The position numbers were made by a program, and so were the translations under genes. A stretch of 64,000 bases of DNA, taken from the NCBI RefSeq assembly GCF_003660105.1, contig NZ_CP032823.1, forward strand, positions 620,001-684,000. The letters are read 5' to 3'. The notes under the pieces were generated by a model, which had not been told where the DNA came from, searched no databases, and saw only the letters and a list, made by a program, of their open reading frames with translations. Positions 5,535 to 63,966 of the stretch are shown here, piece by piece (the first letter of the stretch is position 1; every line of letters begins with the position of its first letter). The stretch comes from Aliarcobacter cryaerophilus ATCC 43158. GTDB lineage: Bacteria > Campylobacterota > Campylobacteria > Campylobacterales > Arcobacteraceae.

Positions 5535-7718
5535 TTAGCTTTTTTTACTAAACTTAATATCATCTAAACTTTTAAATATTTCAGTTGTACACTTTTCAGC
5601 TGCACTTGCTTTTATATTTAAAATTTCTGGTTTATCAGCATTTGAGTTTGATATTACTAAGTCTTGAAGATTTTTATAAAATGTTGTATCTAATACTTTT
5701 ATATTTTCTAAAAGTTTTTTATCTAATATTTTACTTGCATTATCGTTTGAATTTAACCAATCTTTTATAGAGTTATCATCAATAACATTAAAGTTTTTAT
5801 AATCTCCTAGTTTTGAGTAAACTTCATCTTTTTTCTTTAAAAGATTTGTTTTTAGCAAAGCAGTATCATATACTAAATCAACATTATCAACTTTATCTAA
5901 ACTATCTTTTATAAATGATGTTCTTGAAGAAGCAGTTACTAAATAATTTGATGTATAAGCAATAGAAGTTGCCATATTAGATATTTGCTCAGCTACTTGA
6001 GCATTTTTTTGTGTTGAAGCATCTAAAGAGCTAATTGCATCATTGATTTGTAAAATACCACTTTCTTGCTCTTTTGAAGCAGTTGCAACATTCTCTATAG
6101 TTACTAAAGTATTTGAAATACTACTATTTAACTCAGAGTAACCATCTATCATATTATTTGCAATACTTTTTCCATTGTTTGCTTTTGAACTTGCTTTTTC
6201 AACTATATCTTTTATCTCTTTTGCAGCTTGAGCACTTCTATTTGCCAAATTTCTAACTTCTCCAGCAACAACTGCAAATCCTTTTCCTGCTTCTCCCGCA
6301 GTTGCAGCTTCAACGGCTGCATTTAATGAAAGAATATTTGTTTGGAATGCTATTTGATCTATTACCTCAATAGCTTCATTTATAGAGCTAACTTCTTTAT
6401 TAATATCATCCATAGATTTAGCAGTTTGATTTGCCAATTCTTGACCTTTTTGTGCTGAAACACTTAGCTCTTGAGCCAGTTTTGACATTTTTATTGTTGA
6501 TTGAGTATTTGCTTGAATTGTTGCTGTTATCTCTTCAAGAGCAGCTGCAGTTTCTTCAAGACTAGCAGCTTGTTTGCTTGAAGAACTTTTAAGTTCCAAA
6601 GATGTATCTGAAAGTGTTTGAGTACTATTTTTTAAACTATTTCCAGTATTCATAACAATAGCTAAAAGTTCTGATGTATTATTTCCTACTAGATTTATTC
6701 CACTAGTAAGTGAGCCTAAATTTCCAAAAATAGTATCATCTTTTAATACATAATCATATTTTGATTCAGCATATTGTCTTAATGCTTCATTTATATTATC
6801 AAGAGTATCTTTTGTTTTTTCAATCATAACATTTAGTTTATTTTTTAAATCTTCAACATGATGATTTGAAGCTGTATTATGAACTTTATATACAAAAAAC
6901 CCATTTGCAGTTTTTTCTATTACATCATTTGCTTCTTCAATTACAATTTCATCTTGTTTTAAACCTTCTCTTACTTTATCCATATAAGAGTTGAAAAGTG
7001 CTGCAACATCTCCTATCTCATCATTAGATTTTACTTTCAAAGTAATATTTGTATCATTTGAATGAAGTAGATTACTAAAACCTTCTTTTAATATCTCTAT
7101 AGAGTTTGTTGCTTTTTTTACGATAAAAAATATTAAAATAATTGTAAGTAATCCTAAAATAGCAGAAGTAAAAGAGATCTCTTTTAGAAGTGATTGAATT
7201 CTTTTGTCTGTCTCTTCAAGAGAAAAAGTAAGGTCCATAACTCCAATTACATCTCCTACATTTTGATTTGCATGACAAGCCATACATTCAGGTGTAGCAA
7301 TCATTGGTTTTATCATTCTTATAGTATGACCATTTTCATCATTTGTTTGAATTATTTGATTCTCTTTTGAATCAAAACTTTTTAATATTTGTGGGTCATC
7401 TGTAAATGGAGTATCAACAGAGTATAGCTCCATTAGTTCTCTACTTTTTGCGACTGTTAGATTTTTTACACCTCTTATTTCTCTTGCTTCATTTTCTGCT
7501 TTTTGGATAAGTGCTGGATCTCCAGTATTCATTGTATTTCTTAAGGTTTGAAATATGGAAGCATTTAACATTTCTAAACTATCTTTTGCATTTGCTATTG
7601 AATCTTTTGTAACTTTTGTTGTAGTAGAATAAACTATAACTAAACTGCTAATAGACATCAGTAAAAATAGTGCAAATATAATCTTGCTGCTAATCTTTTT
7701 TGTTATAAAATCAAGCAT
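5535..7718 (-). CDS. Methyl-accepting chemotaxis protein with periplasmic c-type heme sensor domain
   Basis: A 727-residue chemoreceptor. TM1 is about residues 12-30, a periplasmic domain of about 150 residues follows, TM2 is about 182-200, then a HAMP region and a long coiled-coil signalling domain with the conserved hairpin tip ([20 protein letters not shown]). The periplasmic domain carries C145-M-A-C148-H149, a CxxCH covalent-heme motif, as in the DUF3365/Tll0287-like family; it likely senses redox state, oxygen or a small gas. About 100 residues follow the signalling domain. Their pattern resembles a chemoreceptor zinc-binding (CZB) domain, but the zinc-ligand histidines and cysteine are not evident. 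AAGGG precedes the ATG. It converges on a CheZ-like gene. Confidence 0.93.
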
Positions 7719-52560: not shown

Positions 52561-53271
52561 CTACTTTTTTAATATATAACCAAAATTAGAGATATTTTCT
52601 ATATTTATATTAATTAACTTTTTTTTAAGTCTTGAAACAAGATCACGTAATGTTGAATCAGAAACACTTTTATTAATCCATATAATATTTTTTAAATATT
52701 CGTAAGAGATGTTTTTGTTTATATTTTTGCACAAAATATGAAAAACTTCTAACTCTTTTTTTGTAAGAGATACAGGAGAATTTTTAAAAGTAAGAGTTTT
52801 TGAATCAAAGTAGTAAATATATTTTTCACCTAAGTTAATCTCTTTTATATTTATTTCTTCATCTTTTTTTTGTTCTTGAAGTTTTTTAATACGATTTATA
52901 CTTGAAATTGCAACACTTAAAGTGGCTTCTACATCTGATATTTGAAAAGGTTTTATCAAATACCCAAAAATATTTTCATCTTTTGCTTCATCTATTGTTG
53001 CTGTATCTGCATATGCTGTTGCAAATATTATTGGAATAAAATATTTTTCATTTAGCAAAGCAGAGCATTTTATTCCATCAACTCCACCTTGAATATTTAT
53101 ATCCATAAAAACTAAATCTATTTGATGATTGCTTACAAGTTCAAGTGCTTCATTTGAGTTTTTTGCTTTGAAAATAGTTTCTGCTCCAAATGAGTCAAGT
53201 ATTTGATATAGATATTCAGTTGCTATAAAATCATCCTCTACAATTAAGATAGAGTAATTTTTAATTTTCAT
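52561..53271 (-). CDS. Response regulator, receiver plus winged-helix DNA-binding domain
   Basis: A 236-residue regulator. ATG 53271 gives MKIKNYSILIVEDDF, the usual receiver start; longer in-frame starts would run deep into the kinase gene. The phosphoacceptor aspartate is in LVFMDINIQGG, with the acidic pair in VEDD. A C-terminal OmpR-type winged helix begins at LTKKELEVFHIL and ends GYILKK. Its gene overlaps the kinase stop by 11 bases. It is the best candidate to bind the 41-base element found twice nearby. Confidence 0.92.
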   Translation of the reverse strand: MKIKNYSILIVEDDFIATEYLYQILDSFGAETIFKAKNSNEALELVSNHQIDLVFMDINIQGGVDGIKCSALLNEKYFIPIIFATAYADTATIDEAKDENIFGYLIKPFQISDVEATLSVAISSINRIKKLQEQKKDEEINIKEINLGEKYIYYFDSKTLTFKNSPVSLTKKELEVFHILCKNINKNISYEYLKNIIWINKSVSDSTLRDLVSRLKKKLININIENISNFGYILKK

Positions 53272-55141
53272 TATCTTTTTCCTTAAATGATAGCTCAAAT
53301 ACTGTTCCATTTTCTTTATAAAAAGAGTATTTTGCATTTGGAAGTTTATTTATAAAATCTTTTATAAGTTCAAGTCCTAATCCAGTTTTTTGAATATTTT
53401 CATCAAATCCAAGCCCATTATCAAATATAATTAAAATTACACTATCGTTCTTTTTATAGCAAGTAATATCTAAAATAATAGCTTTTTCTTTTGGGTGGTG
53501 TTTTATACTATTGCTTATTATTTCATTTACAACAACTCCCAATGACATCATATTTTCAAACTCAATATTTGTCTTTTCTATATTTGTGTTAATCTGTAAA
53601 GTAGGAATACTATATGTTTGTACAATAGTTTTTACAAGTTCATCTATATACTCTTTTAAATCAATATCTATTAAATCTTTTGAGTTGCACAAATATTCAT
53701 GAATTAAAGACATAGATTTTATTCTATTTATTAGTTCTGTAAATCTATGTTTGTTATCGTTTTTTTTGCTTTCAAACCATAAAAAAGCAGTTATTACATG
53801 GAAATTATTTTTAACACGATGAAATACCTCTTTTACTAAAAGTTCTCTTTCTTTTACAAGTCTTGTTAGTTTTAAAGTCTTTTTCTCAACTTCATCTTCA
53901 AGAATTTTGTTTTGATTTATTTGTAAAGAAATTAACTCATTTTGAGTTTTTATTTGCTCATTTTTTATAATATTATAACGATTAGAAAGTATTAATGCAA
54001 AAACTATTATTTCAAGGCATAGTGAATATAAATATGAATATCTATTAAAATAGTTATATTCAAGAACCCCTGTTAAGAATAAAATAAAGATAATAACAGA
54101 AGTAAAATATATTGAAATAGCAAAAATATAGTACTTTAAAAAGTATTGGCCTTTTTTATAAATTTTTATTGATGAGATTATTAAAGTAATTAGTATTAGT
54201 GTTATTATGTGATTCATATAGTTATTCCAAGGGCTATACGAAATTACTATCATCATAAAAGCAAACACAAAAAGAAGTAATATTAATATTTTAATAATAA
54301 AAACACTGGCTTTAAAATATTTATTTGCTTCAAAATATTCAATAGAAAATAAAGCTAAAAATATAATACTTAAAGAGACTGCAAAATGTAGCTTATACAT
54401 ATATTGTTGTAAATCAAAATATATTAAAAATCCACTAATATTTATAAAGTAAACGAGTGCAAAAAAAGTATATCCAACATAATAAATATATACTTTTTCT
54501 TTTAAACTAAGCCATAAAAATAGATTAAACACAATAATAATAAATAAGATACCAAATTGAAATATAAAAAAAGAATCAATATTCAAAAGCTTATTTGTAA
54601 AGAAATAATCTTTTGAATAAACAGCAATATTTCCAAAATAGGGATATTTTCCTTTTAATTCTATAAATATTGTTTGTGAGTTATTTTGTTGGATTTTAAA
54701 ATTAAAAGCTAGTTTAGAAGTTTGTATATCTCTTTTTTCTATTGGTGTGAAAACACCATTTTCTAATACTTTCCATGATTTTTCTAAATCATCAAAATAG
54801 TGCATATTCGCTTTTTCATAAAAGTGTTCGTTGATTGATAAAATAAAATCTTCTTTAAAGCTTTTGTTTTTTAAATCAACTTTTATCCAAATAGTATCTG
54901 GTAAATAACCCAAAGAGAACTTATTTGAATGTTTTTGAAAATAATTTGAATTTGATACTTCTTGTATATTTAATTCATTACTTGAATCTTTCAAATAAGA
55001 TATTTCAAAGTTCTCATTAGAATTAAAACCATCTTCTAATATAAGTGTTGAAGAGTTTGCATATAAAAAATTAATAAATAAAAATAGAGATATAAGATAT
55101 TTCAAAAATTGCCTTAATTTATAATGATAAGATTTTAACAT
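53261..55141 (-). CDS. 7TM sensor histidine kinase (7TMR-DISM, HisKA_2)
   Basis: A 626-residue kinase. ATG 55141 is preferred over an in-frame TTG nine bases upstream. A signal peptide is followed by a periplasmic 7TMR-DISMED2 domain (LGYLPDTIWIKVDLKN), seven transmembrane helices (about residues 185-385), a coiled coil, the H-box FHRVKNNFHVITAF and an ATPase domain with NEIISNSIKHHP and FDNGLGFDE. DISM domains are thought to sense carbohydrates or other small ligands. It pairs with the overlapping response regulator gene. No ribosome site is seen. Confidence 0.92.
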   Translation of the reverse strand: MLKSYHYKLRQFLKYLISLFLFINFLYANSSTLILEDGFNSNENFEISYLKDSSNELNIQEVSNSNYFQKHSNKFSLGYLPDTIWIKVDLKNKSFKEDFILSINEHFYEKANMHYFDDLEKSWKVLENGVFTPIEKRDIQTSKLAFNFKIQQNNSQTIFIELKGKYPYFGNIAVYSKDYFFTNKLLNIDSFFIFQFGILFIIIVFNLFLWLSLKEKVYIYYVGYTFFALVYFINISGFLIYFDLQQYMYKLHFAVSLSIIFLALFSIEYFEANKYFKASVFIIKILILLLFVFAFMMIVISYSPWNNYMNHIITLILITLIISSIKIYKKGQYFLKYYIFAISIYFTSVIIFILFLTGVLEYNYFNRYSYLYSLCLEIIVFALILSNRYNIIKNEQIKTQNELISLQINQNKILEDEVEKKTLKLTRLVKERELLVKEVFHRVKNNFHVITAFLWFESKKNDNKHRFTELINRIKSMSLIHEYLCNSKDLIDIDLKEYIDELVKTIVQTYSIPTLQINTNIEKTNIEFENMMSLGVVVNEIISNSIKHHPKEKAIILDITCYKKNDSVILIIFDNGLGFDENIQKTGLGLELIKDFINKLPNAKYSFYKENGTVFELSFKEKDNEN

Positions 55142-55151
55142 AAAAAACAAC

Positions 55152-55192
55152 TATAAAATCCGACAGATTTAAGATAATTTCTTAATAAAATA
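55152..55192. repeat. 41-base regulatory repeat, copy 1
   Basis: Identical over 41 bases to 56775-56815. It lies 58 bases ahead of the diguanylate cyclase start and only ten bases from the divergent kinase start. It contains the inverted repeat TTAAGA-N5-TCTTAA (55169-55185) and ends in an AT-rich -10-like sequence. Confidence 0.9.
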
Positions 55193-55250
55193 TATAACAT
55201 TAATTATACAAGTATAAAAAATTCATTTATAAAATCACTAGGGAACAAAT

Positions 55251-56684
55251 TTGAAATTATCAAAATTTTTAACAAAATTTATATTTATTACTGCATTTAC
55301 ATCTTTTATATTAGCATTCTTAATCTCTATTATTTTTCAATACTTAAATTTTAAAAATGAATTTAATCACTATAAAAAAGAGTTTACAGAGCAAAAGAAG
55401 AAAGAGGTAAAAAATGAAGTTTTAATGATTTATGGATTAATAAATTATAAAGAAGAGTTATTAATAAAAAATCTTGAACAGAAATTACAAGAGAAGGTAA
55501 ATCAAGATTATGATTTAGCTATGGATATTTATAAAAGTAATAAAAATATAAAAACAGAAGATGAAATAAAATATTTATTAGAACAAAATAAAGAAGAAAT
55601 TTTATCATGGATTTCTTCTTTAAAATATGAAAATAGTAGTTACTCTTTTTTAAATACTACAGATGGATATACTTTAATTTTTGAAGAAAAAAAAGTTGAG
55701 CCAAAGCCTCATCCATTTCCTGAACTATTTAATCAACAACTTGAAACTGCAAAAAATCCTAATGGTGATTTTTTTGAATATAAGTTTAAAAAACCAAATA
55801 GCAATGAAGAGTTTGATAAAATTTCTTTTGTAAAAAAATATGAAAAGTATAATTGGATTATTGGTTGTGGAGTTTATTTGGATGAAATTAATGATGAATT
55901 AAAAAAGAAAGAAGAAATTTTTTATCAAAATATCAGAAATCAAATTACTTCAATGATAATTGTATTTCTACTTATTTTAATTGGTATATATTTTATATCA
56001 AAAAAAATAGGAGATTTTATAAATATTAATATAAATAATTTAGTAAAAGCTTTTTCAAAAGCATCTTTAGATAATAAAAAAATAGATACAGAAAAATTAA
56101 CTTATACAGAATTTGTAATTCTTGCAAATAATTTAAATGAAACTTTGGAAAATAAAAACAATCTCGAAAAAGAGCTTCAAAATCTATCAATTACTGATGA
56201 ATTAACTCAACTTTATAATAGAAGATTTTTTAATTCAAAAATTGAAGAAGAGATAAATAGAGCAAAAAGGGAGAATAAACATCTTTGTTTAATGGTTTTA
56301 GATATTGATTTTTTTAAACAATATAATGACACTTATGGGCATCAAAAAGGTGATTTTGTTTTACAAGAAATTTCAAAAGTATTAAAAAATAGAACAAACA
56401 GAGCTAGTGACTTTGCTTTTAGAATTGGTGGTGAAGAGTTTGCAATACTTGTAAACTTAGAAAAAAATAGAATTTCTGAATTTGCGGAAGCTATAAAAAA
56501 TGATATTGAAAATCTTAAAATTGAACATTCAGGAAATAAAGTATCAAAATATGTAACAACTTCTATAGGTGTTAATTTTAAACAAGCTGATGAGTTAAAA
56601 AATATTGATGAACTATTTAAAGTAGCTGATGATAATCTTTACGAAGCTAAAAAAAACGGAAGAAACTGTGTGGTTATACAATAG
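55251..56684 (+). CDS. Membrane diguanylate cyclase with periplasmic Cache domain
   Basis: A 477-residue c-di-GMP synthase. TM1 about residues 8-32, a periplasmic single-Cache-like domain (YENSSYSFLNTTDGYTLI, NWIIGCGVYLDEI), TM2 about 225-247, then a coiled linker and a GGDEF domain. The active site reads GGEEF, preceded at the right distance by the inhibitory I-site R-A-S-D, so it is probably active and product-inhibited. TTG start 55251 has AGGGA ahead. It sits between a two-component system and adhesin genes that it may control. Confidence 0.93.
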   Translation: MKLSKFLTKFIFITAFTSFILAFLISIIFQYLNFKNEFNHYKKEFTEQKKKEVKNEVLMIYGLINYKEELLIKNLEQKLQEKVNQDYDLAMDIYKSNKNIKTEDEIKYLLEQNKEEILSWISSLKYENSSYSFLNTTDGYTLIFEEKKVEPKPHPFPELFNQQLETAKNPNGDFFEYKFKKPNSNEEFDKISFVKKYEKYNWIIGCGVYLDEINDELKKKEEIFYQNIRNQITSMIIVFLLILIGIYFISKKIGDFINININNLVKAFSKASLDNKKIDTEKLTYTEFVILANNLNETLENKNNLEKELQNLSITDELTQLYNRRFFNSKIEEEINRAKRENKHLCLMVLDIDFFKQYNDTYGHQKGDFVLQEISKVLKNRTNRASDFAFRIGGEEFAILVNLEKNRISEFAEAIKNDIENLKIEHSGNKVSKYVTTSIGVNFKQADELKNIDELFKVADDNLYEAKKNGRNCVVIQ

Positions 56685-56774
56685 ATTTTTAAAAATTTCT
56701 ATTATAAAAAAATAAGTCTTTTAATATATTTCTAACTTTTATTTTTTAACTCAACTTTTATCTAAAAAAATAAA

Positions 56775-56815
56775 TATAAAATCCGACAGATTTAAGATAA
56801 TTTCTTAATAAAATA
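56775..56815. repeat. 41-base regulatory repeat, copy 2
   Basis: Exact copy of 55152-55192, 26 bases ahead of the adhesin start. The inverted repeat TTAAGA-N5-TCTTAA is at 56792-56808. The AATAAAAT at its end fits a -10 box with transcription starting near 56822, which would put the inverted repeat over the -35 region, a typical activator site. Confidence 0.9.
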
Positions 56816-56841: not shown

Positions 56842-59800
56842 ATGAACTTTATACCTAGCTATAAAAATAGTTTCCGTATCTTAAAAGGTGGAAAGATAAG
56901 CCTAGTAGTATCATCTTTTCTAGCAAGTACAACTCTTACTTTTGCAGCCCCAAGTGGTGGAACTGTAACAAGTGGAAGTGCAAATATATCTCAAAATGGA
57001 AAAGTAACCGATATAACTCAATCTACTCAAAAAGCCTCTATAAACTGGAATAAGTTTAATATAGCAAGTGATGAAACAGTAAACTTCAAACAACCAAACT
57101 CTTCTTCAATTACACTAAATAGAGTAGTAGGAAATGAAAAGTCTATTATCAATGGTGCTTTAAATGCAAATGGACAAGTTTGGATTATAAACTCAAATGG
57201 TGTTTTATTTGGTAAAGGTGCAAGTATTAATACAAGTGGACTTCTTGCAACTACAAAAGATATAAGTGATGCAGACTTTCAAGCAGGAAACTATAAATTT
57301 ACAGGTAACTCAAAAGAATCAGTTATAAACCTTGGAACCATAGATGTAGTAAATGGTGGTTCTGTAATACTTGCTGCAAACGAAGTAAGAAATGAAGGAA
57401 CAATAAAAGCTATAAAAGGAAAAATACACCTTGTAGGTGCAAATGAATACTCAGTAAACCTAAATGGAAACTCACTTGTAAATCTAACAGTAAATAAAGG
57501 AGTACTAGATGCTCTTGTACAAAACTCAGGAACTATTATTGCAAATGGTGGAGAAATATATCTTACAACAAATGCTGTAAATGAACTACTAAAAGGTGTA
57601 GTTAATAATACAGGAGTTATTGAAGCAAATAGCTTAGCTGGGATAACTGGTCATGTAGAACTCTTTGCTCATGGTGGAACTGCAAATGTTGCAGGGACTA
57701 TAAATGCTACTGATGGGTTTGTGGAGACTAGTGGAGATAAAGTAAAAATAGACGATAGTTTTAAAGTAAAAGCGGATAAATGGCTTATAGACCCAACAGA
57801 CTTTACAATTGCAGCTAGTGGTGGAGATATAAGTGGTGCTACACTATCAAATACCTTAGCAGGTGCAAATGTAGAGATACAAAGTGTAAGTGGAGCTAAG
57901 GGAACAAAAGGAGATATAAATGTAAACGATACTATCACATGGAGTAGTGATAAAAAGCTTACTTTAAACGCTCAAAACGATATCTTCATAAATAAAGAGA
58001 TTACATCATCTCATGCAAATGGAAAACTAGAACTTCTTTATGGACAAAAAGCAGTAGCAGCTGGAAATACATCAGATTATCATGTAAATGCAAAAGTAAA
58101 TTTAAAAGCTGGTCAAAACTTCATCACAAAAAAAGGAAGTGATGGAACTGCTACAGACTGGATAGTAGTAAATGCTTCAAATATGAACTCAGCTATGAAT
58201 ACAGATAAAACAAAGAGCTATGTTTTAGGTGAAGATATAACTCTAAGTGGTACTAATAACTGGACTTCCATCGGAACATTAAGTGCCAAATTCAAAGGAA
58301 AGTTTGACGGTTTAGGTCACACTATCTCTAACTTATCTATTATAGATAATTCTTCAGATTATATAGGGCTTTTTGGTCATACAGAATATGCAACAATTCA
58401 AAATATTGGATTAGTTAATGTAGATATTAAAGGAAAAGATTATGTAGGTGGGTTAGCTGGAAAGCACTTAGGTATTATCAGAAATTCATACATCACTGGG
58501 AGCATAGAAGGAACTCAGTATGTGGGTGGATTAGTAGGACTTAATGGTACCATTTCTGTTCCTGGCTATATAAAAAATTCTTATGCTAATGCTACAGTAA
58601 AAGGAACAAAGTTTGTAGGTGGACTAGCTGGAAATGCTAATGAAGGTGGCATAGATTACTCTTATGCTTCAGGCAGTGTAACAGGTACTGAGGAAGTATA
58701 TGGATTATCTCGTAATATACAAAACAATATTACTAAATCTTTTTATGACAAGGAAGCAAACACAGCTATTATGAGCGATAGTGCTACTTATGGAAGAACA
58801 AAAGCAGAGATATTAGATGCATTTTCAGGTAAGGAAGCTTGGCTAGTTGGTGGTGCAAGAGATGAAGGATACACTTTAATCGAGCTAACATTGCCAGCAC
58901 TGAAAACTTTTAACACCTCTGTAACAACACTGTTTGCAGGTGGTTTTGGAACAGTAAACGATGCCTACACCATAACAAACTGGAACCAACTGCAAAATAT
59001 AAACTATGCATGGTTTACTAAAAACAAAAACTACAAACTCTTAAATAACATAAGTAGCACAACAGCTGGTTATATGGGTACAGGTGAGGGTTGGAATCCT
59101 ATAGGTACATTTTCTGGAAACTTTGATGGCTTAGGTCATAGCATCTCAGACTTATATATAAATAGACCCTTTAACAGGCAAAGTCTGTTTGGACAAACTG
59201 AAGATGCTAGTATTGTGAATGTAAATCTTATTAATGTGAATATTACAGGTAATAATGAAGTTGGGGCATTAGTAGGATCTGCAATTGAAACACATATAGA
59301 AAATGTAAGTTCTAGTGGAAAAGTTGTTGGAGAAGAAGAAGTTGGTGGATTAGTTGGATATATGACTGATTCGGCTATTACAGTACTAAAAAGTCATTCT
59401 AGTGCTGAAGTAACTGGAATTGAAAATGTAGGTGGACTTGTAGGACAATTAGATAATAGTGCTATAAGAGAAAGCTATTCAACTGGAAAAGTAACAGGAA
59501 TAGGTACTAGTAAAAATATCGGTGGTTTAGTTGGTATGAGTTTATATTCAACAATTGAAAACTCTTATGCTACGGGAGAAGTTAGTGGCGCTACTAATGT
59601 TGGTGGTTTAGTAGGAAGGAACACTAGCAGTAGCGTAACTAAATCTTTTTGGGATACACAAACGTCAGGGCAAGCAACTTCAGCAGTTGGAGTAGGTAAA
59701 ACAACAGCACAGATGCAAGATAAATCTACTTTTGATGGTTGGGATATCCAAGAAGATAGCACAATTGCTAAAGGCACACCATTTTTAGCATGGCAAACAG

Positions 59801-60252
59801 CAGGAAATAGTTATACAAAAACATGGGTAATAGGAACTAAAGGTGCAACACCGCCAACACCAAATCCAGTTGATCCAAAACCACAAGATACAAATAAAGG
59901 TGTAGAAAGAATAGTAAGATCAATTGCAAATCAAACAGCTACAACTGTAAATTTACCTAATATGGAAACGAGTACTACTCCAAATAATAGTGGAAGAAAT
60001 ACAAATATCTCTTTTTCTCAAGGTGAGAATCAAATGTTAGTTTCAAGACCAATTGAAGGACAAGCTACAAAAAGAGTAAGTTTAAGCGAAGCTAGACAAA
60101 TGCAAATACAAAATGGTGGAAGCGGTGAAGAAGTAATAGTTCCTTTATCAAATAGCTCAATTATACAGCTTGTTGATGGTGGAGTTAATCTTCCAAGTGG
60201 AGTAGAACAAGAGTTTTATTTAGCAAATGCAAATACACAAGAGGGAAAATAA
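56842..60252 (+). CDS. TpsA: large secreted adhesin of a two-partner secretion system
   Basis: A 1136-residue filamentous-haemagglutinin-type exoprotein. An extended signal peptide ends in TLTFAA; the TPS secretion domain follows (about residues 38-290), with QVWIINSNGVLFGKGA corresponding to the NPNGI-type motif (here NSNGV). Two GLUG-repeat arrays lie at about residues 490-640 and 745-950 (for example YVGGLVG, EVGGLVG, NVGGLVG). No cysteine and no C-terminal membrane anchor are seen, so it may be released or stay attached by other means. AAGGA precedes the ATG; the 41-base repeat lies just upstream. TpsB follows with overlap. Confidence 0.92.
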   Translation: MNFIPSYKNSFRILKGGKISLVVSSFLASTTLTFAAPSGGTVTSGSANISQNGKVTDITQSTQKASINWNKFNIASDETVNFKQPNSSSITLNRVVGNEKSIINGALNANGQVWIINSNGVLFGKGASINTSGLLATTKDISDADFQAGNYKFTGNSKESVINLGTIDVVNGGSVILAANEVRNEGTIKAIKGKIHLVGANEYSVNLNGNSLVNLTVNKGVLDALVQNSGTIIANGGEIYLTTNAVNELLKGVVNNTGVIEANSLAGITGHVELFAHGGTANVAGTINATDGFVETSGDKVKIDDSFKVKADKWLIDPTDFTIAASGGDISGATLSNTLAGANVEIQSVSGAKGTKGDINVNDTITWSSDKKLTLNAQNDIFINKEITSSHANGKLELLYGQKAVAAGNTSDYHVNAKVNLKAGQNFITKKGSDGTATDWIVVNASNMNSAMNTDKTKSYVLGEDITLSGTNNWTSIGTLSAKFKGKFDGLGHTISNLSIIDNSSDYIGLFGHTEYATIQNIGLVNVDIKGKDYVGGLAGKHLGIIRNSYITGSIEGTQYVGGLVGLNGTISVPGYIKNSYANATVKGTKFVGGLAGNANEGGIDYSYASGSVTGTEEVYGLSRNIQNNITKSFYDKEANTAIMSDSATYGRTKAEILDAFSGKEAWLVGGARDEGYTLIELTLPALKTFNTSVTTLFAGGFGTVNDAYTITNWNQLQNINYAWFTKNKNYKLLNNISSTTAGYMGTGEGWNPIGTFSGNFDGLGHSISDLYINRPFNRQSLFGQTEDASIVNVNLINVNITGNNEVGALVGSAIETHIENVSSSGKVVGEEEVGGLVGYMTDSAITVLKSHSSAEVTGIENVGGLVGQLDNSAIRESYSTGKVTGIGTSKNIGGLVGMSLYSTIENSYATGEVSGATNVGGLVGRNTSSSVTKSFWDTQTSGQATSAVGVGKTTAQMQDKSTFDGWDIQEDSTIAKGTPFLAWQTAGNSYTKTWVIGTKGATPPTPNPVDPKPQDTNKGVERIVRSIANQTATTVNLPNMETSTTPNNSGRNTNISFSQGENQMLVSRPIEGQATKRVSLSEARQMQIQNGGSGEEVIVPLSNSSIIQLVDGGVNLPSGVEQEFYLANANTQEGK
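58340..59640 (+). repeat. GLUG-type repeats coding for the adhesin stalk
   Basis: Degenerate repeats of roughly 30 residues, with a core V/I-G-G-L-V/A-G. Array 1 (about 58340-58700) and array 2 (about 59180-59640) are each preceded by a similar FDGLGHxISxL block, so the whole unit looks duplicated once. A non-repeat insert lies between. Confidence 0.8.
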
Positions 60253-61928
60253 TGAAAATTAAAAACACTATATTATTATCAAGTCTTTTAGCAAGTACAA
60301 TTTATGCAAATCCAATACCACCAAAAATTGGTGATGTTTTAAAGGAGGTAACTCCTCCTAAAATAGAGCGTGAACAAAAGCAAATACCAAAAATACAACA
60401 AGAACAAATAACAACTCCAAAAGAGTTTGAAGATGATAAAAAAGTAAGGATTGAAAGATTTTTTATAAGCGGTGCAACTCATATGAGTAATGAAGAATTA
60501 AAACAAATAGTAGCTCCTTATGAAAGTCAAGATTTGAGTTTTAATCAAATTCAAGAAGTAACTACTCTTATTACAAAAGCCTATAGAAGTAAAGGTTACT
60601 TTGTCGCAAGGGCTTATATTCCTGAACAAAATATAATGACACAAGATAATAGATTAAAAATAAATGTTATTGAAGGAAACTATGGAGAGTTTAAATTAGA
60701 AAATAAATCTTTGGTTAAAGACTCTATTATTCAATCAAACCTTGATGATATAAAAGATAAAGATATTGTTTCAACCAATACACTTGAACGTGCAATGTTA
60801 ATTATAAATGATACTCCAGGAGCTGTTGTTACAAAAGCAGATGTAAGACCTGGAAAAGAAGTAGGAACTAGTGATTTTTTAATTGGAACGGAAGCTACAA
60901 ATAGAGTAAATGGATATTTAATAGGTGATAACTATGGTTCACAATATACAGGGAAACATAGAATTATGGCAGGAGTTGATATTAACTCTCCTTTTAATAT
61001 TGGAGATAAAATATCTGCTTTTGGATTTACATCTGAAAAAGAGGGACTTTTAAGTGGAAAGCTAGCTTATGATTTTCCAATTCATGCAAATGGAACAAGA
61101 GGAGAAATTAGTTACTCAAAAACTACTTATGAACTAGGAAGTTCATATAAAGAGCTTGATGCTGTTGGAAAATCTGATAGCTTAACAGGAAGAGTTACTT
61201 ATCCTATTTTAAAAACAAGAGTTGAGAATTTAGACTCATATGTAGAAGTTTCATATAATAAAATGAAAGATGAAATTCAATCTGTTGATTCAAAAGTTAA
61301 AAAAGATTCATATGTAGCAACAACTGGGCTTGATTACACAAAAGACTCACTTGTTTTTAATAAAAACTCTCAAACAAGAGCAGGAGTTTCAATTACATTT
61401 GGAAGACTAAGTTTTAATGATAGAAAGGACAAAGAAGATGATAAAAATGGAGCAAATACTCAAGGAAAATTTTCAAAAATAAATCTTGAATTAGGTAAAG
61501 ATATAGATATCTTTACTAGTTTAAAATGGAGTAATACTTTACAAATGCAATACGCACTTGGAAATAAAAACTTAGATGGAAGTCAAGATTTAAGTGTTGG
61601 TGGAATAAATGGAGTTAGATTTTATCAAGATGGTGAAGAGAGTGCTGAAAATGGATATATCTATAATACAGAATTTATATATACATTTCCAATAATCGCA
61701 GGAATTGATAATAAAATATCACTGTTTTATGATATAGGTCGTGTTTATATGAGTAAAAATTTTACTCAAGAAAAATCAAGAACACTGCAAGATATAGGTC
61801 TTGGATATAAAGTTTCTTACAAAAATTTCTTTGCAAATAGTTACTTAGCTTATAATATTGGTAATGAAGTAACTTCACAAAAAAACTACAATAGTAGAGC
61901 TATGTTGCAAGTGGGTTATGTTTTTTAA
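60252..61928 (+). CDS. TpsB: outer-membrane transporter of the two-partner secretion system
   Basis: A 558-residue FhaC/ShlB-family Omp85 transporter. Signal peptide (about 19 residues), a proline- and glutamine-rich N-terminal linker, a POTRA_2 domain (RIERFFISGATHMSNEELKQI) and a 16-strand barrel ending in YVF with terminal phenylalanine. It exports TpsA. Start ATG overlaps the tpsA stop by one base (TAATG). Confidence 0.95.
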   Translation: MKIKNTILLSSLLASTIYANPIPPKIGDVLKEVTPPKIEREQKQIPKIQQEQITTPKEFEDDKKVRIERFFISGATHMSNEELKQIVAPYESQDLSFNQIQEVTTLITKAYRSKGYFVARAYIPEQNIMTQDNRLKINVIEGNYGEFKLENKSLVKDSIIQSNLDDIKDKDIVSTNTLERAMLIINDTPGAVVTKADVRPGKEVGTSDFLIGTEATNRVNGYLIGDNYGSQYTGKHRIMAGVDINSPFNIGDKISAFGFTSEKEGLLSGKLAYDFPIHANGTRGEISYSKTTYELGSSYKELDAVGKSDSLTGRVTYPILKTRVENLDSYVEVSYNKMKDEIQSVDSKVKKDSYVATTGLDYTKDSLVFNKNSQTRAGVSITFGRLSFNDRKDKEDDKNGANTQGKFSKINLELGKDIDIFTSLKWSNTLQMQYALGNKNLDGSQDLSVGGINGVRFYQDGEESAENGYIYNTEFIYTFPIIAGIDNKISLFYDIGRVYMSKNFTQEKSRTLQDIGLGYKVSYKNFFANSYLAYNIGNEVTSQKNYNSRAMLQVGYVF

Positions 61929-62010: not shown

Positions 62011-63966
62011 TTAAAAACTTGTCCATTCTTCTGAATCTTCATTTTTTGAAGGAGTATCTTTTGATTTCTCTTTTTTTAAATTAGGTTTTTTGATATCTAA
62101 AACAGATTTATTTGTGCTATTTTCATCTAAGTTTTTAGATTTTACTTCATTTTTTCCAATAAACTCTTTTGAATTTGCATTTGAAACAATAAGTTTTGCA
62201 ATAGTATCTGTTTGCATTGCAACATTATATGTTTGTGAAGCAATTTGTGCATTTTGTTGAGTTTGTTGGTCTAAAGAGTTAATTGCATGATTTATTTGTT
62301 CAATTCCAGCAAGTTGCTCTTTACTAGAAGATTCAACACCTTTGATTAAAGTAATAGTTTGAATAATATTTTCATTTAATGTTTTATACCCACTTATCAT
62401 ATCTTCAGAGATTTTTTTACCCAGATCTGCTTTTTTTGTAGCATTTTCAACTATTGCTTTTATCTCACGTGCTGCTTCTGCACTTCTTGTTGCTAGATTT
62501 CTCACCTCTTGAGCAACAACTGCAAAACCTTTTCCTGCTTCTCCTGCAGTTGCAGCTTCAACTGCAGCATTAAGAGAAAGAATATTTGTTTGGAATGCTA
62601 TTTGATCAATTACAGTTATTGCTTCGTTTATTGAATTTACTTCTTTATCTATTTCATTCATAGATTCTGTTGTTTGATTTGCAAGAGTTTCGCCTTTTGT
62701 TACAGAATTTGTAACATTTGAAGCTAATTTTGACATTTGAATAATATTATCTGTATTATTTGAGATATTACTAGAAATTTCTTCAACTGCAGCTGCTGTT
62801 TCTTCTAATGCAGCTGCTGCTTCATTTGAATTTTTATTTAAAATATCTACATTATTTAATAAAATTCCACTACTTACATCAAGAGTCAAACCATTTGATT
62901 TATTTTCTACTAACATACTATTTATAATATCTGCTAAATTATTTAGTCCAACAGTAACTCCACTATTACAACCTTTTATTCTATGAGTAAAATCAAGTTT
63001 AGAATATTTTTCAAGAGCATAAGAGATATCATTTACATTTGTACAAATTCTAAGTTGTAAACTATATAACATCTCATTTATATGAATTCTTAATTTTTCC
63101 ATACTTTGCGATTCAACTTTTTCTTCAAGTCTTTTATTTAAATAACCATTTTTTACAATTTCTACAACTTCATTTATTTGTTCTAAAAATTTATTATCAG
63201 AATCAATTGTTTTTTTTGTTTTTAGAATATTTTCATTTACAATTTTTGCCATATTTCCGAATTCATCTTCATATTTCTCATCTAACATTTCAACATTTGT
63301 ATTCTCTTTATTTACATATCCAAAGAAACTTAATAAACCTTTTTGGAAGTTTTTTAATGAGTTAATTAACTGATTTGATAAAATAATAGAAAAAGTTAAA
63401 AAAATTATTATAGAAATTATTGCAATTAAGATTAAAACAGTAGTCATGGTTTTTTCTGATTTAGATTTTAGCTCTATAGTATTTTTATTCATAAGTGCCA
63501 ATTTTTCTTCAAGTTCTAATCCTACACTTACCATTTGTTTTATAATAGTTGAGATTTCATCACTCTCATTTTGTATCCCACTATTATAATCACTAATTCT
63601 TTTTTGATAAAACTTATCAAAATTAGAAATATAATCCGCAGACAATTTTAAAATTTGATTACTTAAATCAATATTCTCTTTTTCTGTCAATAAAGGTTTT
63701 AAGTTTTCAACAAAGTTATCTAACTCTTTAAAGTCTCTCTTAACTTTTTGAGCATTTTGTTCTGAAGGAACTCTTAAAAATTGATATACAGAAATTCTCC
63801 CCTTTAATACTTGTTGTATAAAAATATCTGTTTGGGTCGCAGTTTTAATTCTTTGATTACTTATTTGATTAAAATAACTGAATACTAAACCACAGACAAT
63901 TACAATTACTACAAATGTAATTGGTAAAAGCATCAATTTCTTTTTTGTAGAAAGATTATTTAACAT
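62011..63966 (-). CDS. Methyl-accepting chemotaxis protein with C-terminal CheR-type pentapeptide
   Basis: A 651-residue chemoreceptor. TM1 about residues 12-32, a helical periplasmic domain (about 33-172, four-helix-bundle-like), TM2 about 173-195, a HAMP region and a signalling domain with the same tip as the receptor at 5535-7718. After the signalling domain comes a flexible, lysine-rich tail of about 50 residues ending in E-W-T-S-F. This fits the x-W-x-x-F pattern of the NWETF tether that recruits CheR and CheB in E. coli. GGAG precedes ATG 63966. Ligand unknown. Confidence 0.94.

Follow-up and report, generated by a model that had tools for sequence, protein, structure and literature searches.

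Organization of the locus

The window analysed here is a stretch of 64,000 nucleotides from Aliarcobacter cryaerophilus ATCC 43158 (genome G000; related genomes carry handles of the same form). To the left of the first copy of a 41-base element, on the minus strand, lie the genes for a sensor kinase and then a response regulator, while to the right, on the plus strand, a diguanylate cyclase gene is followed by the second copy of the element, an FHA-type adhesin gene and the gene for its TpsB partner (Table 1). The regulator has both a receiver domain and a Trans_reg_C domain scoring above the Pfam cut-offs, which places it in the OmpR/PhoB type. The adhesin gene begins at ATG 56842, with TTAAGGA upstream. 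The open frame of the kinase would allow a start at TTG 55150 or ATG 55141, and the first-pass annotation placed the kinase start next to copy 1. TTG 55105 is the more likely start, because a signal peptide (LKYLISLFLFINFLYA) follows directly and AAGG lies upstream; the kinase would then begin about 50 bp from the element.

A second pair of 7TMR-DISM kinase and response regulator genes is found on the 101-kb contig C2 of the same genome (G000:C2:18505-20325, L054), and it has no box of the kind described below. A 7TMR-DISM protein adjoining a response regulator has been reported on an A. cryaerophilus plasmid (PMC6690266).

Table 1. Genes and promoter features of the locus, in window coordinates
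Feature	Position	Strand	Evidence or remark
Response regulator, receiver + Trans_reg_C winged helix (OmpR/PhoB type), candidate ligand	52561..53271	-	PF00072 3.6e-21, PF00486 3.4e-9
Sensor kinase, 7TMR-DISMED2 + 7TMR-DISM_7TM + HisKA_2 + HATPase_c	53261..55105	-	Open frame to 55150
Possible divergent -10 of the kinase-regulator operon, TAAAAT	55132..55137	-	Weak, inferred
Element copy 1, putative operator-promoter facing the diguanylate cyclase gene	55152..55192	+	Identical to copy 2; joint best matrix score in the window
Half-site 1, copy 1, TCCGACA (consensus TCCGWCA)	55159..55165	+	Alignment with 17 promoters
Half-site 2, copy 1, degenerate TAAGATA, 11 bp after half-site 1	55170..55176	+	Register with other species
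-10 hexamer, copy 1, TAAAAT, 9 bp after half-site 2	55186..55191	+	17-promoter alignment
Diguanylate cyclase, Cache sensor + GGDEF	55251..56684	+	RxxD...GGEEF intact
Element copy 2, putative operator-promoter facing the FHA-type adhesin gene	56775..56815	+	Positional orthologue of the single element of G007
Half-site 1, copy 2, TCCGACA	56782..56788	+	
Half-site 2, copy 2, degenerate TAAGATA	56793..56799	+	
-10 hexamer, copy 2, TAAAAT	56809..56814	+	17-promoter alignment
FHA-type adhesin, TPS secretion domain (TpsA, HecA-like)	56842..60252	+	PF05860 3e-31
TpsB outer-membrane partner (ShlB/FhaC/HecB)	60252..61928	+	PF03865 4.8e-24, PF08479 4e-18

The duplicated element

Direct comparison confirms the base-for-base match reported in the first-pass annotation: the two elements agree at all 41 bases (TATAAAATCCGACAGATTTAAGATAATTTCTTAATAAAATA), and the bases immediately flanking them are unlike (C and A at the left, T and C at the right). 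About 1.7e-12 such 41-base pairs would be expected by chance. The annotation had named many copies elsewhere as an argument against its reading, and the 2.1-Mb genome holds just the two. The element is not a dispersed repeat, since its 26-base core, searched with up to three mismatches, is found nowhere else in the genome. In the dinucleotide-shuffled window the 39-base core gave no match at up to three mismatches, and none of the genomic matches to AATCCGACAGATTTAAGAT with up to three mismatches is a further site bearing TCCGACA. The end of a mobile element was also considered and rejected, as only two copies are present and no transposase ORF lies between them.

The accompanying claim that the region has no other duplicated DNA is not entirely accurate: the last 1,066 bp of the intervening diguanylate cyclase gene are 99.5% identical to a second, chromosomal diguanylate cyclase gene. 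During the same check a 300-nt direct repeat, 77% identical, was seen at 6139-6438 and 62387-62686, one copy of which lies inside a methyl-accepting chemotaxis protein gene (62011-63966).

Architecture of the probable promoter

In distant relatives, whose response regulators are about 47-53% identical to the one in the window, direct repeats of TTCCGTCA recur every 11 bp in the intergenic region, as in G020 (TTCCGTCAGCATTCCGTCAGTATTCCGTCACCGTTCCGTCA). The stretch AAATCCGACAGATTTAAGATAAT of G000 lines up with AAATCCGTCAGATTTCCGATTAT of G055, which identifies TCCGACA as half-site 1 and TAAGATA as a degenerate half-site 2; the latter is in register with TCCGATT in G055, TCCGATA in a Sulfurovum MAG and TCCGWCA in the other species. 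Other species have tandem direct half-sites with a period of about 11 bp, of which the window shows a form that is degenerate at the second half-site. The core that is conserved reads TCCGWCA-N4-TCCGWCA-N9-TANNNT; its two 7-base half-sites (the box) have an 11-bp period, and a -10 hexamer follows exactly 9 bp downstream.

When 17 promoters are aligned on the last half-site (with the less clear of two Sulfurovum sites, L141 10780, left out), a TA...T hexamer lies exactly 9 bp downstream in every one of them. This hexamer matches TATAAT at a mean of 4.9 of 6 positions, and almost none is found at other offsets. The AT-rich, -10-like end that had been described for the element is supported. The 41-mer starts 7 bases ahead of half-site 1 and ends one base past the -10 hexamer. 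Wherever the target gene, which is never that of the regulator, is on the contig, the box faces it. On the other side, 11 of the 17 promoters have a TATAAT-like hexamer on the opposite strand, 20-21 bp from half-site 1; this is a weaker pattern than that of the main -10, but it fits a divergent kinase promoter. Autoregulation of the kinase, which had been suggested for copy 1, is plausible from this arrangement.

Promoters of other species, 16 in number and with G000 and G007 excluded, were used to build a position matrix, which was then applied to the window on both strands. Of about 128,000 window positions, the 41-mers take the top two places, with a score of 14.36 versus 1.1 for the next best; a set of 20 random 64-kb sequences contained one position that reached 14.4. 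The matrix gives the G000 site 14.4 and the G007 site 17.2, and all training sites score higher (24-47). Because of its half-site 2, the G000 site is recognisable yet weaker than every training site. The low scores of G000 and G007 may mean that affinity is low or that a second site was missed.

Association with the response regulator

In about 100 family genomes and 399 order genomes, nearly all occurrences of this architecture adjoin orthologues of the response regulator and its 7TMR-DISM kinase. The tandem repeat TTCCGTCA-N3-TTCCGTCA, with at most one mismatch, occurs in 7 of 104 family genomes and not in the control, and all matches are at the regulator/kinase module except that of G045, which lies at a contig end. 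The full pattern with its -10 hexamer gives 12 matches in nine family genomes, again with none in the control. It adds G012, where the match is at the module, and G063, which has two boxes on a contig that ends just past the outer one. In the order genomes the full pattern has seven matches in six genomes (control, one). All seven are at regulator/kinase loci, and a separate protein search finds a regulator orthologue in each of the six. One-mismatch tandem boxes occur in the order at about control frequency, mostly inside genes. A contig scan with the regulator alignment returned mostly unrelated receiver domains because its peptide patterns are generic; it added one useful locus, in the Sulfurovum MAG (L141).

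The sequence S-T-x-R-D in the recognition-helix region is common to all 14 orthologues that have a box, and regulators of 40% identity or less are mostly without the box and without the S-T-I/L-R-D...SR pattern. The box-less relatives G113, G125 and G031 carry S-T-x-R-D nonetheless, and no recognisable box adjoins the orthologues of 46-49% identity in G125 and G031.

The genes behind the box differ among species. They encode FHA-type adhesins in G000, G007, G002, G020, G056, G063, G085 and G230, autotransporter beta-domain proteins in G012, G055 and G085 (from Pfam) and in G063 (by resemblance), and giant surface proteins with NHL/Ig or ricin-B-lectin domains in G186 and G188. In G053 a periplasmic-binding (NMT1/SBP3)-GGDEF diguanylate cyclase is directly behind the box, followed by the kinase and the regulator (L138 6312-8594). 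This would be a second, independent link of the two-component system to c-di-GMP. G063 and G085, like G000, have two boxes before two adjacent targets at one locus. The same box design appears to guard surface-adhesion genes across the order.

Occurrence of the box beside regulator orthologues throughout the order supports the earlier suggestion that the neighbouring regulator is the candidate ligand. That the element is a shared operator and promoter is strongly supported by the cross-species box and by the matrix; the exact identity of the two copies, on which the suggestion was based, is not by itself functional evidence. Because the element appears to have been duplicated together with the insertion or acquisition of the diguanylate cyclase gene, that identity says little about constraint.

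Proposed mechanism

PhoB operators are located upstream of the -10 hexamer and replace the -35 element. By analogy, each 41-mer would be a complete, directional operator-promoter, in which two regulator subunits bind head to tail on TCCGACA and the degenerate TAAGATA, 11 bp apart, in place of a -35 element. The bound regulator would recruit RNA polymerase to the TAAAAT hexamer 9 bp downstream, so that an active kinase would lead to activation of both genes. Phosphorylation of the regulator by the membrane-bound 7TMR-DISM kinase is predicted to turn on the FHA-type adhesin and its TpsB exporter from copy 2 and the diguanylate cyclase from copy 1. Adhesin and c-di-GMP would then increase together, which is the physiological link that we infer. 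The account as a whole, with both 41-mers as promoters driven by the regulator and the second copy duplicated along with the cyclase gene, is very probably correct.

Activation, rather than repression, is the preferred mode. The same box could in principle serve a repressor that obstructs RNA polymerase at a promoter which is otherwise constitutive, and the site does overlap the promoter. Such repression is unlikely: a -35 hexamer cannot be discerned, and the half-site keeps a fixed distance of 9 bp from the -10 hexamer, the usual position for activators of the OmpR/PhoB type. Promoter overlap is itself stated to be typical of activators, in the case of HP1043 (PMC8345958).

Origin of the second copy

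The closest relative, G007, whose kinase is 87% identical, has just one element, located between kinase and adhesin, and its locus lacks a diguanylate cyclase gene. G002, G020, G056 and G230 also have the order kinase, box, adhesin without a cyclase. The cyclase in the window is a paralogue of the chromosomal gene G000:C1:1341310-1343068 (L089 3311-5068). Over its first 336 bp it shares only 80% identity with that paralogue but 87-89% with the cyclase genes of G007 and G008, and a 324-bp in-frame sensor stretch is missing. Together with the nearly identical 3' part, these features indicate that the window gene is a mosaic, whose 3' part was recently copied or, probably, gene-converted. The chromosomal copy, for its part, is without the PAS-like stretch of the 701-residue orthologues in G007 and G008. 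G008, whose cyclase is close to that of G007, has only a 75-residue TpsB remnant (89% identical; G008:C13:91500-91724), which suggests that the adhesin locus has decayed in this genome.

As no cyclase accompanies the kinase, box and adhesin of the outgroups, insertion of the cyclase gene with duplication of the element would be the simplest account. Kinase and adhesin would have been separated by one element in the ancestral locus, and a copy of the chromosomal cyclase gene would have been placed between two elements in this lineage. Alternatively, this may have happened in an ancestor shared with G007, and the cyclase may later have been lost in G007 through recombination between the repeats. 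Either way the cyclase gene would have been recruited to the regulon along with its promoter.

The 41-mer could also be mainly a recombination scar or junction repeat of the insertion, with one copy a passenger and the cyclase not co-regulated. The two copies lie exactly on either side of the inserted gene, a single copy is present in relatives, and the sequences beyond the 41-mer are barely alignable (shuffling p of 0.2 on the left and 0.03 on the right). However, the repeat begins shortly before half-site 1, ends one base past the -10 hexamer and is oriented toward the cyclase. Twin promoters occur before adjacent targets in G063 and G085, and G053 has a cyclase behind its box. A scar without function is thus rather improbable, and passenger origin and later function are in any case compatible. 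Duplication of a working promoter remains the preferred reading; through it, c-di-GMP synthesis seems to have become part of the adhesin regulon.

Other candidate sites within the element

The first-pass annotation pointed to the inverted repeat TTAAGA-N5-TCTTAA, to which a dimer would bind. This palindrome is indeed present in both copies, but it is not the core of the operator. Of the 41 positions, 2 differ between the 41-mer and the G007 element (TTAAGATAATTTTTTAA), and one of these differences disrupts the palindrome, whose right arm becomes TTTTAA at a locus that is otherwise intact. The palindrome is absent from the distant relatives and is kept in no other species, whereas TCCGWCA and the 9-bp spacing are kept in nearly all. 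A genome-wide search allowing three mismatches finds 73 matches versus 76 in the control, no excess. The palindrome is a coincidence of the degenerate half-site 2 (TAAGATA) and the 9-bp spacer, and a palindromic operator is highly improbable. Least credible is a site for an orphan regulator of the HP1043/HsrA/CosR type: TTTAAG does occur in the element, and HP1043 has a validated site of the form TTTAAG-5bp-CTTAAA (PMC8345958), but here 7 bp, not 5, separate TTTAAG from CTTAA, the second hexamer of the consensus is absent at 5 bp, TTTAAG is not kept beyond G000 and G007, and the box tracks the regulator linked to the 7TMR-DISM kinase.

Relation to known systems

The tandem half-sites resemble the Pho box, which is 22 bp long with two 11-bp direct repeats (PMC3978041), each of a conserved 7-bp part (CTGTCAT) and a looser 4 bp (PMC2648988). 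Both have this 7 + 4 layout and share a GTCA core. However, the half-site here reads TCCGWCA instead of CTGTCAT, a 7TMR-DISM/HisKA_2 kinase is linked to the regulator, and the targets are adhesins, autotransporters and diguanylate cyclases rather than phosphate genes. HP1043/HsrA and CosR of Helicobacter and Campylobacter are likewise OmpR-type regulators of related bacteria with promoter-overlapping sites, and G000 shares TTTAAG with them. Their consensus, ttTAAG-N5-tTTAAg for HP1043 (PMC8345958), is not found in the element, and the box is conserved elsewhere without TTTAAG. The adhesin and its partner resemble HecA and HecB of Arcobacter butzleri, an FHA-family adhesin with a ShlB/FhaC-type partner. 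The passages of that report considered here describe no regulator or promoter for hecAB (PMC2147049), whereas a dedicated two-component system and operator are predicted here. A search of full-text literature, which mostly does not include subscription papers, found no description of a TCCGWCA operator, nothing relevant on 7TMR-DISM together with two-partner secretion, and no regulator described for FHA-type adhesin genes in Arcobacter relatives.

It is quite possible, though still tentative, that the system is a portable surface-attachment regulon of the order, consisting of a 7TMR-DISM system with its own TCCGWCA class of operator. Its layout would be kinase, box and gene X, box and adhesin, with X exchangeable (an autotransporter in G063 and G085, a diguanylate cyclase in G000). 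Genes would be recruited by duplication of an operator-promoter unit of about 40 bp, and c-di-GMP synthases would have been captured at least twice (G000 and G053). The analysis provides a testable operator sequence, and with it a predicted regulon, for the two-component system beside the FHA-type adhesin genes of Arcobacter relatives. The locus appears to show such a regulon in the middle of its growth, with a gene for making c-di-GMP behind a duplicated adhesin promoter. That duplication would tie second-messenger output to adhesin export in one evolutionary step.
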